From positions 1-51,773 of the forward strand of contig CAIPYV010000106.1 in NCBI GenBank assembly GCA_903869365.1: a DNA stretch of 51,773 nucleotides, written 5' to 3'. This DNA comes from an uncultured Chlorobiaceae bacterium (GTDB lineage: Bacteria > Bacteroidota > Chlorobiia > Chlorobiales > Chlorobiaceae). Within the stretch, counting starts at the first letter, position 1. Every line of letters begins with the position of its first letter. A model generated the notes under the pieces. It made no database searches. It was not told where the DNA came from and worked only from the letters and a program-made list of their open reading frames with translations. The position numbers and the translations under genes were made by a program. Shown here piece by piece: positions 39,175 to 43,184 of the stretch.

Positions 39175-39206
39175 AAAAAAAGCCTGCCTACAAGCCGGCT
39201 TTTTTT
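39175..39206. terminator. Bidirectional terminator, korB/accA
   Basis: An A-run plus GCCTGC pairs with GCCGGC plus a T-run around loop CTACAA, with one internal mismatch. It sits 20 bp after the korB stop and touches the accA stop codon on the other strand. Confidence 0.88.
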
Positions 39207-40212
39207 ATACCTCTTCTTTCCAGACTCCCATAGACGAAAACTTTTCTATCCGATCATGAACCAGTTCACCCGGATCCCTTGGCAGAAGCGCTTTCAGCTC
39301 CTCGATCAATATATTCTTCAGGGTAGCGGCCATGGCATCAGGGTCAGTGTGAGCACCTCCAAGCGGTTCAGGAATAATCCTGTCGATGATCCCCTGGGCA
39401 AGAAGATCCTCTGCCGTAAGTTGCAGCGCCTCAGCCGCCTGTTCTTTATAATTCCAGCTTCTCCAGAGGATTGAAGAACAGCTTTCAGGAGAAATCACAG
39501 AATACCAGCTGTTTTCAGCCATAATAATCCGGTCACCTACACCGAGGCCAATGGCGCCTCCACTTGCACCTTCACCAATAATCACACAGATAACCGGAAC
39601 AGTCAACTTTGCCATTTCAAACAAATTCCGTGCAATTGCCTCCGCCTGCCCCCGTTCCTCAGCTTCTATTCCAGGAAATGCACCCGGAGTATCAATCAGA
39701 GTAATGACCGGTTTACGAAATTTCTCAGCAAGCTTCATTAAACGAAGCGCCTTGCGATATCCTTCAGGCTGTGCCATACCAAAATTCCGGTAAAGATTGG
39801 ATTTGGTATCACGTCCTTTCTGGTGACCAATGATCATAACGGATTGGGAAAAATCTGACGAACTCTCTTCAATGCGGGCAAAACCACCGACAATGGCTTT
39901 ATCATCACTGAAATGCCGGTCGCCCGCCAGTTCGACAAACTCTTTGGTCATCATATAGATGTAATCCAGCGTAAACGGCCTCTCTGGATGGCGTGCGAGC
40001 TGTACCTTCTGCCAGCGGGTAAGATTTTTGTAGATCGAACGACGAAGCGCATCAACTTTCAACTCAAGCGTCTCGATATCATGCTTGAGCAACTCACTTT
40101 CAGAAGACACCTGTTCTCTCGTAATGCTCCGAAGGCACTGACGCATTTCATTGAGTTTGGCTTCAAGCTCAAAGAGTGGCTTTTCAAAATCAAGGACAAC
40201 TTTCTTGGCCAT
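39205..40212 (-). CDS. accA: Acetyl-CoA carboxylase carboxyltransferase subunit alpha
   Basis: With AccD, transfers the carboxyl group from carboxybiotin to acetyl-CoA, making malonyl-CoA. 335 residues. An N-terminal coiled-coil ([12 protein letters not shown]) precedes the crotonase-like domain with [19 protein letters not shown] and the oxyanion [10 protein letters not shown]. accD is not adjacent. An HU gene lies 40 bp upstream on the same strand. Confidence 0.95.
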
Positions 40213-40252: not shown

Positions 40253-40528
40253 TCAACCGCCGACCTCTTCCTTTAATGCCTTTCCTGGCTTGAACTTAAC
40301 AACTTTTTTTGCTGAAATGGTAATTGCTTCACCTGTCTGAGGATTCCGTCCCTGTCTTTCCGCCCTGTCACCAGTGGTGAACGTACCAAAACCGACAAGT
40401 GTGACATCATCCCCAGCCTTCAGTGATGCTGTTATTACATTGATAAAGGCATTTACAGCACGTTCGGCATCCACTTTTGTCAGTTTTGCCTGTTCAGCGA
40501 TTTTTTCTACGAGTTCAGCTTTTGACAT
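40253..40528 (-). CDS. hup: HU-type DNA-binding protein
   Basis: 91-residue nucleoid protein with the HU/IHF arm [12 protein letters not shown] and the usual N-terminal dimerisation helices ([15 protein letters not shown]). Bends and compacts DNA as a dimer. Same strand as accA, 40 bp upstream; may be cotranscribed. The 209-bp gap to efp is AT-rich and presumably holds divergent promoters. Confidence 0.95.
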
Positions 40529-40737: not shown

Positions 40738-41304
40738 ATGATTTCTATCAGTAATGTTTCAAAAGGTTCAATTATCCGTTTCAAAGGAGAACCACATAGT
40801 GTTGAGAGCCTTATTCACCGTACTCCTGGAAATCTGAGGGCGTTTTACCAGGCAAACATGAGGAACCTGAAATCCGGCAGAAATGTAGAGTACCGATTCA
40901 GTGCTACAGAATCAGTGGATGTTATTGTAACAGAGAGAAAACAGTATCAATATCTTTATCGAGACGGCAGTGATTTTGTCATGATGGACAACGATACCTT
41001 TGACCAGATCAATGTTCCTGAAGTAGCAATCGGATCTGCATCCCGTTTCGTCAAAGATGGCATCATTGTCACTATTGTATTTTCTGATGACGCCTCTATT
41101 CTTAGCGTTGAACTCCCCACATTTGTCGAGGTTGAGGTCATTGAAACAAGTCCGGCATTAAAGGATGACAGGGCAACAAGCGGAACAAAACCGGCAGTCG
41201 TTGAAACTGGCACAGAAGTCAACGTCCCGATGTTTATCCAGACAGGAAGCATTATTCGTGTTGACACCCGTACAGGAGAGTATATTGAAAGAGTTAAAAA
41301 GTAG
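40738..41304 (+). CDS. efp: Elongation factor P
   Basis: 188-residue three-domain KOW/OB protein that stimulates peptide bond formation at polyproline. The tip loop reads RTPGNLRAF: Pro30-Gly31-Asn32, where E. coli has PGKGQ with modified Lys34. This EF-P therefore has no Lys or Arg at the modification site. The C-terminal [20 protein letters not shown] is the standard EF-P C-domain. accB and accC follow, the usual efp-accB-accC order. Unmodified or differently activated EF-P is likely (inference). Confidence 0.95.
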
Positions 41305-41359: not shown

Positions 41360-41821
41360 ATGAACTTTAACGAAATCAAGCAGCTTATCGACATTGTCGA
41401 TAACTCAGATCTTCAGGAAACAATCATCGAACAGGGTGACTTTAAAATTATTATGAGGCGGGCTCCCTCAGCAACAGGAACTCTGCAGCCGAATGTTCTA
41501 CCGTCTGCAGAACCTTTGTTGCAAGCCGCTCCCCAGGCTTTACCTCCTGTTCCTGTGGTTCAAAAAGAGGAGCCTGCATGGGGCTTGATCGAATCACGCT
41601 CACCAATTGTCGGGACGTTCTACCAGTCATCATCCCCTGACTCTCCACCCTTTGTTGCCATCAATGACACCATAAAAAAGGGGGATGTTCTCTGTATTAT
41701 CGAAGCCATGAAGCTTATGAACGAAATTGAAGCAGAGGTTTCGGGCACTATTGTTGAGATTCTTGTTGAAAACGGACAGGCTGTAGAGTATGATCAACCA
41801 CTCTTCAGGATTAAACCATAA
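41360..41821 (+). CDS. accB: Biotin carboxyl carrier protein of acetyl-CoA carboxylase
   Basis: 153 residues from [11 protein letters not shown], the conserved start; an ATG 30 bp upstream adds a doubtful leader. The biotin domain has EAMKLM with biotinylated Lys118. A Pro/Ala-rich linker (about 40-75) separates it from the N-terminal helix. Carries CO2 as carboxybiotin between AccC and AccA/AccD. Lies 55 bp after efp and 19 bp before the likely accC start. Confidence 0.95.
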
Positions 41822-41840
41822 ACATTCATCAGAGAAAACC

Positions 41841-43184
41841 TTGTTCAATAAAATACTTGTTGCAAATCGCGGCGAAATTGCCTTGCGTATTATGCAGACC
41901 TGCCGCGAAATGGGAATCAGTACTGTTGCAGTTTATTCTACAGTTGATGCTGAATCAATGCATGTCAAATACGCCGATGAAGCTGTCTGTATAGGACCAG
42001 CTTTATCAAGAGAGAGTTATCTTAACATTCCACGTATCATTGCTGCTGCTGAAGTAACGAATGCTGATGCCATTCATCCCGGCTATGGTTTTCTGGCTGA
42101 AAATGCAGATTTTGCTGAAGTATGTGCCTCTGTCAATATCAAGTTTATCGGCCCTACAGCCACAATGATCAACCAGATGGGCGATAAAAACACAGCAAAA
42201 TCAACGATGATCTTTGCTGGAGTTCCTGTCGTTCCAGGTAGCCCCGGTCTGGTTACCGATCTTCAGCAAGCTATCGAAACAGCTCAAAGAACCGGTTACC
42301 CTGTTATTATCAAGCCAACTGCCGGTGGCGGAGGAAAGGGAATGCGGGTCGTTACAGAAGATAGCCAGATGGAAAAAGCCTTGAACACAGCTCGCAGCGA
42401 AGCCGAGCAATCTTTCGGCAACAGTGGTGTCTATATCGAGAAGTATCTTGAAAATCCTCGCCACGTTGAGATCCAGATTTTATCAGATCAGCATGGAAAC
42501 ACTATTCATCTCGGAGAACGTGACTGTACTGTCCAGAGAAGACATCAGAAACTGATTGAGGAAACTCCTTCGCCGGTTGTTGATGAGGCACTCAGGAAAA
42601 AAATGGGTGATGCCGCTGTAGCCGCAGCACGGGCAATCAACTATGAAGGAGCAGGAACTATTGAGTTTCTGCTCGACAAGCACAAAGATTTCTACTTCAT
42701 GGAGATGAATACCCGTATTCAGGTGGAACATCCGGTTACTGAAGAACGCTATGATGTTGATCTCGTCAAAGAACAGATTCTCATCGCAGCTGGTGAATCA
42801 ATTGAAGGCCGAAACTTTATTCCAAAAGGCCACTCGATTGAATGCCGAATTAATGCTGAGGACCCAGAGCACTCGTTCCGTCCTTCACCTGGACAGCTTC
42901 AGGTTTTCCATACCCCTGGTGGTCACGGCGTAAGGGTTGACTCGCATGCTTATGCCAGCTATGTTGTCCCATCGAACTACGACTCCATGATTGCAAAACT
43001 TATCGTTACAGCCCACTCAAGAGATGAGGCTATTGCAAGAATGTCACGCGCCCTCGATGAATTTATTGTCGTCGGGATAAAAACCACTATTCCTTTCCAC
43101 AAACAGGTCATGCATTCTTCTGTTTTTCAAAGCGGGGATTTCGATACGAGTTTTCTCGAATCCTTCAGGTATGAAAAAAAGTAA
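41841..43184 (+). CDS. accC: Biotin carboxylase of acetyl-CoA carboxylase
   Basis: ATP-grasp enzyme that carboxylates biotin on AccB. Starts at TTG 41841 giving [16 protein letters not shown], the family N-terminus; an in-frame ATG at 41790 overlapping accB would add 17 residues without family support. ATP-grasp Gly-rich loop GGGGKGMR at about 166-173, catalytic segment [15 protein letters not shown], and the C-terminal [10 protein letters not shown] region. About 447 residues. Ends at a strong terminator shared with rpoC. accA is encoded 2.5 kb away on the other strand. Confidence 0.93.

Follow-up and report, generated by a model that had tools for sequence, protein, structure and literature searches.

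The elongation factor P (EF-P) encoded by the efp gene of an uncultured Chlorobiaceae bacterium carries asparagine at the tip of its beta3/beta4 loop, where E. coli has Lys34, and this Asn is one member of a set of coupled loop residues that has switched repeatedly. EF-P helps ribosomes past proline runs and, as usually described, depends on a Lys or Arg that has been modified; exceptions are few. On balance, the protein analysed here is probably a genuine, working EF-P of an Asn-tipped (N-tip) subfamily that acts without post-translational modification. Asn at the EF-P tip is, as a residue class, already in print and is not new; what we did not find described in the literature is that the loop residues form a coupled set, how widely this set occurs, and that it switches as one unit. 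What is added here includes the occurrence of the same loop across numerous families of the phylum, and also in genomes that bear the titles Verrucomicrobia or Acidobacteria.

The window is the whole stretch of DNA that was analysed, 51,773 nucleotides in length. The efp gene, the loop and the flanking genes lie as follows.

39205..40212, minus strand: accA, acetyl-CoA carboxylase carboxyltransferase alpha, on the upstream side of efp (profile match)
40253..40528, minus strand: HU/IHF-family DNA-binding protein, divergent, upstream of efp (best NCBIfam scores below the cut-offs)
40738..41304, plus strand: efp, elongation factor P, 188 aa, three domains (domain profiles, fold model)
40822..40842, plus strand: beta3/beta4 loop Thr29-Pro-Gly-Asn-Leu-Arg-Ala35, equivalent to E. 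coli Lys31 to Ala37 (alignment; modelled as an inter-strand coil)
40831..40833, plus strand: Asn32, codon AAT, at the position of E. coli Lys34 (sequence, alignment)
40834..40839, plus strand: Leu33-Arg34, coupled to Asn32 (E. coli Gly35, Gln36; residue counts)
40894..40896, plus strand: Arg53 (E. coli Thr55), a further residue characteristic of N-tip EF-Ps (alignment, conservation)
41360..41821, plus strand: accB, biotin carboxyl carrier protein, downstream of efp (NCBIfam/profile match)
41790..43184 (ORF as listed), plus strand: accC, biotin carboxylase (profile match)

The true start of accC probably lies later than the listed one, because the listed ORF overlaps accB.

By its domains and predicted fold, the efp product is an elongation factor P. 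All its Pfam domains score above their cut-offs (EFP_N 56.8, EFP 65.7 and the C-terminal domain 84.6 bits), as does the NCBIfam model TIGR00038 efp (213.7 bits, cut-off 185.8). The AlphaFold model (30 sequences) has a mean pLDDT of 88.9 and a pTM of 0.71; residues 29-35 are predicted to form a coil between two strands, and the top PDB matches of the model are EF-Ps, the best being that of C. glutamicum (6s8z, TM 0.92). An identity as EfpL/YeiP was rejected: NF003392 reaches 122.3 bits (cut-off 216) and TIGR02178 116.2 (cut-off 264.05), and the loop is not extended. The original prediction had read the loop as PGNLRAF with Asn32 as the equivalent of Lys34, and both readings hold: the open reading frame at 40738-41304 (+) gives H27-R-T-P-G-N32-L-R34-A-F36, and alignment with E. 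coli EF-P places residue 32 (AAT, 40831-40833) on Lys34. A shifted loop register was rejected, the loop having seven residues as in E. coli. With Asn at the tip there is, as had been claimed, no acceptor there for the known Lys- or Arg-directed modifications, and the possibility raised at the time that a standard Lys lies in another part of the loop is not borne out (residues 27-44 have none). That the same genome has a second EF-P with a Lys tip was also rejected: there is a single EFP_N match, making this the sole EF-P found in the genome.

Could the Asn itself be an artefact? A sequence error at 40831-40833, which the original prediction had named as a possible objection, is excluded because the EF-Ps of relatives all have Asn. 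Our sample of the order comprised 75 genomes (48 of the genus, own genome included, 17 of the family's other genus and 10 others). EF-P is present in 73 of these, and all 73 proteins carry Asn at the tip, which answers the proposed check of other Chlorobiaceae; their tip triads are NLR in 70 (G244 being NLR), NKR in 2 and NLH in 1. The profile search for EFP_N found nothing in G193 and G157, two relatives rated 98-99% complete. That the Asn reflects a sequencing error or a decayed gene has next to no chance of being right, given the unanimity within the order, an open frame that is intact with all domains present, and the use of both Asn codons (AAC 128 and AAT 87 times over the 215 ORFs counted).

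The loop extends well beyond the order. A DNA pattern for PGNLRAF, which also admits Ser for Arg, matched 126 of the 296 genomes of the phylum; matches outside the order were retrieved in part, and some of them were not EF-P (non-EF-P matches dropped: L002, L004, L007, L008, L009, L012 and L081). EF-P tips were read in 201 of the 296 genomes, 132 of them with an N-tip, 10 with an Arg tip (KTARAAAK) and 59 with a Lys tip only; as these 201 genomes were chosen partly by the loop pattern, 132/201 is not a frequency. Judged by title, the N-tip relatives include Sphingobacterium, Pedobacter, Mucilaginibacter, Chitinophagaceae and Cytophagales, and further Ignavibacteria, Chlorobiota OPB56, Acidobacteria and Verrucomicrobia (best 80 among the matches listed). 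Among the genomes sampled in the phylum to which the Opitutus locus L164 belongs, 18 of 115 have a PGNLRAF-type EF-P loop; for the phylum of the Acidobacteria locus L162 the figure is 12 of 119. Both counts refer to one fixed loop string, which other N-tip loops would escape, and 4 of 22 and 4 of 16 loci, respectively, were dropped as not EF-P. What the original interpretation said of the loop, the Asn tip and the lack of an acceptor stands, but the Asn class had been published before and is not specific to Chlorobiaceae. In one genome, G225, the loop occurs on two contigs (L106 and L107), both copies at contig ends; they are probably one gene on overlapping contig ends.

The residues that follow the tip are coupled to the tip itself. 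We compared 308 distinct EF-Ps, leaving out ORFs shorter than 150 aa. The 200 N-tip proteins have the triads NLR (187), NWR (9), NKR (3) and NLH (1): the +1 residue is Leu, Trp or Lys and never Gly (0/200), the +2 residue is Arg in 199, and Pro stands two residues before the tip in all 200. Among the 98 K-tip proteins, the triads are KGG (45), KGP (24), KGA (23), KGN (3), KGQ, KGR and KTR (1 each), with Gly at +1 in 97 and Arg at +2 in 2; the 10 R-tip proteins are all RAA. The search pattern had prescribed Leu and Arg, and the count was therefore repeated on 84 EF-Ps picked by domain model, partly chosen for failing the loop pattern. There, the 15 N-tip proteins comprise 8 NWR, 4 NLR, 2 NKR and 1 NLH (no Gly at +1, Arg at +2 in 14), and all 59 K-tip proteins have Gly at +1, with Arg at +2 in one; 10 are R-tip. 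In E. coli numbering, both N-tip groups differ from the K-tip proteins at positions 31, 34, 35, 36 and 55, and more weakly at 53, the changes including Lys31 to Thr or Asn, 36 to Arg and Thr55 to Arg. The original prediction was right about the Asn but treated it as a single changed residue, whereas positions 31, 34, 35, 36 and 55 co-vary. In 46 N-tip proteins less than 70% identical to one another, conservation is 1.00 at residues 27, 30, 31 and 32, 0.98 at 34 and 36, and 0.93 at 35 and 53, the mean over columns being 0.61. The loop is thus conserved as a block, which speaks for function.

A tree was built from 126 representatives of 260 sequences, with the loop columns omitted and without a root; L219_1 (a wrong ORF, its genome being re-read from L386) and the short ORFs L106, L169 and L182 were excluded. 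Seven tip changes are needed on this tree, and supported branches force at least four switches, whichever of the two labels, N or K, is scored. Lys-tipped proteins lie within N-tip clades (G128 with KGR, G109 with KGG, Microscilla with KTR, and a KGG duplicate that shares its clade with Sphingobacterium), and the NWR group is placed with Bacteroidia-like Lys-type proteins. Lacking a root, and with weak support on many deep branches, the tree does not give the direction of switching. A test on independent pairs had 4 usable pairs, in which, on average, Arg at +2 changes in parallel in 2.7 and Gly at +1 in the opposite direction in 2.9 (median p 0.25); with only four pairs and this p value, the coupling rests on few events. 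The Microscilla loop, TPNKTRAM (L158:3001-3564), has a Lys tip and Arg at +2 without Gly at +1, and is unlike both types.

Both N- and K-tip EF-Ps were read in four genomes (G080, G099, G138 and G214), and a fifth, G122, has two EFP_N matches, one of which was read. In a Pedobacter MAG (L126), the N-tip and Lys-tip EF-Ps lie in tandem. Genomes with two EF-Ps cluster with Sphingobacteriaceae and have an N-L-R and a K-G-G copy, about 70% identical, either in tandem (L014, L015, L038, L039, L126) or apart (L037 with L061, L035 with L062). Of 186 residues, 127-137 are identical between the two copies, and only 77 or 84 between the Lys-type copy and a Lys-type EF-P from Bacteroidia. Since it is closer to its N-tip partner than to that protein, the Lys-type copy is, as judged by residue identity, a duplicate with its loop switched. 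Two genomes with such a copy, G080 and G214, have no EpmB match over the cut-off.

We then consider the enzymes that modify EF-P elsewhere. With E. coli among the controls that score over the cut-off, the EpmA model reaches 240.1 bits in the own genome (cut-off 286.9), in a 518-aa frame that we take for LysRS, and the EpmB model 27.4 bits (cut-off 369.3). EpmB exceeds its cut-off in none of 22 genomes, a set that includes G070, where no EF-P was read; seven of them, N-tip genomes included, have sub-cut-off scores of 221-250 bits. The EarP model has no match in the own genome or in any of 74 genomes, which does not demonstrate absence, because no control genome reached the cut-off either. A linked modifying enzyme was rejected: beside efp there is no candidate in the window and none common to ten N-tip loci (two efp neighbours each), where the neighbours include accA, accB, fabH, lpxC-fabZ and unrelated genes, two being without a Pfam match. 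Ten genomes of one family of the Bacteroidota phylum (L051-L060) have the Arg tip KTARAAAK with no Pro at -2, and the EarP search, which had no positive control, was matchless there as well; their EF-P is an Arg type for which no modification is assigned.

The need for EF-P seems to persist in this genome. Its ValS keeps PPPNVTG, which indicates that polyproline still has to be translated. In 283,712 bases of its own sequence, we counted 117 PP against 140.3 expected and 4 PPP against 6.3, compared with 151 against 148.5 and 6 against 5.5 in the Lys-type relative G188, and 49 against 51.8 and 0 against 2.2 in 100 kb of E. coli. There is a slight lean towards PP being somewhat rarer than expected in the own sequence, the counts being small.

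The original prediction left a choice between an unmodified and a newly modified EF-P, a fair pair of which we favour the first. In its favour are the block conservation of the loop, the coupling of its residues, the repeated tip switches, the lack of EpmA or EpmB over cut-off and of an EarP match in the own genome, the absence of a shared enzyme gene beside efp, the fold match to C. glutamicum EF-P and the ValS motif. We propose that TPGNLRA, at the E. coli loop length, would put an uncharged Asn tip on a Pro-Gly turn, with a bulky side chain, Leu here and Trp or Lys in relatives, where E. coli has the flexible Gly35. Together, this side chain and the Pro-Gly-Asn turn would hold the loop in one shape, and Arg34, two residues after the tip, may contact the P-site tRNA as the modified Lys does elsewhere. 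With this contact and a fixed loop shape, the N-L-R triad would replace the modified Lys, so that no modifying enzyme would be needed. In E. coli, Lys34 contacts the CCA end (PMC6544042, available text). The same source counts against an unmodified factor, in that E. coli K34N is inactive, G35N has 3.8% and Q36S 21.1% activity; a triple change of the K34N/G35L/Q36R type was not found reported in the literature, as far as its texts were available. The small pair test, the EarP searches without a positive control and the slight Pro-Pro deficit weigh on the same side.

The near-invariant loop could equally be an enzyme recognition motif. An enzyme would then act on Asn32 (by glycosylation, hydroxylation, methylation or ligation) or on Arg34, with T-P-G-N-L-R as its motif, an explanation that we regard as unlikely although the loop hardly varies across groups and the accessible parts of PMC6544042 and PMC5615199 describe loop-tip modifications on EF-Ps of other groups. 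Variation occurs at +1 (L, W, K) and +2 (R, H) but not at the Asn, and the loci, as described above, offer no linked enzyme. We are similarly doubtful that EF-P has a further modification chemistry whose substrate would be the N-tip loop common to much of Bacteroidota/Chlorobiota and to certain Verrucomicrobia and Acidobacteria. Another explanation would make the N-tip EF-P weak or specialised, with other factors, such as ABCF proteins (for example YfmR/Uup) and YebC-type proteins, carrying most polyproline rescue. The loss of activity in E. coli K34N, the slight deficit of Pro-Pro pairs and the existence of other rescue factors (PMC11990639 and PMC11381351, in the text available) fit such a factor. 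It is nevertheless improbable in our view: the loop and the whole protein are conserved, nearly every genome sampled in the order keeps EF-P, ValS retains its PPP, and the N-tip EF-P is mostly the sole EF-P of its genome.

An Asn-tipped EF-P that is group-wide and has a coupled Arg suggests that different ordinary residues, or a new modification, may do the same work, and what had been a figure in published tables of percentages becomes a directly testable case. If it is true that such an EF-P needs no modifying enzyme, it would be convenient for cell-free translation. We found no paper on how active a natural Asn-type EF-P is, or on its modification, in a search largely confined to main texts outside subscription journals, nor anything in the available portions of PMC5615199, PMC8807479 and PMC12992588. 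One paper on Chlorobaculum EF-P lists its occurrence only, and the string PGNLRAF had no literature match.

Among the systems already described, the closest are the Asn-34 EF-Ps of the literature, which share the Asn tip and the Pro two residues before it, and the efp product, with Asn34 and Pro32 in E. coli numbering, belongs with them. In the texts as available, Asn tips make up 2.2% among organisms without yjeA/yjeK (YjeA/YjeK) (PMC2821294, 2010) and 2.23% of 1166 EF-Ps, with Pro32 in 100% (PMC6544042, 2019), and Asn is listed among loop tips (PMC11611912, 2024). Those texts give percentages, an ancestral reconstruction and E. coli K34N, and in the parts available the coupled +1 and +2 residues and the carrier groups are not described. 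The Lys-type EF-P of E. coli, beta-lysylated by EpmA/EpmB, resembles the protein in domains, loop length and the Pro-Gly before the tip, but here Lys is missing at position 34 and elsewhere in the loop, and neither EpmA nor EpmB is over its cut-off in the own genome. The EarP-rhamnosylated Arg type also has Arg in the loop, at the tip rather than at +2, and almost lacks the Pro at -2 that is present here (PMC6544042, available text); the efp product, having Asn at the tip, is not of this type. EfpL/YeiP works with an unmodified loop (PMC11611912, available text), as we propose for this protein, but its loop is lengthened with Arg at the tip, whereas the efp product has seven loop residues and Asn. 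That article, in the part available, states that stiffened or lengthened loops function without modification and cites the C. glutamicum-type loop as stiffened to work unmodified. The unmodified EF-P of Actinobacteria is also the best fold match of our model; C. glutamicum has a Lys tip, PGKGPAF, where the efp product has Asn, Leu and Arg.
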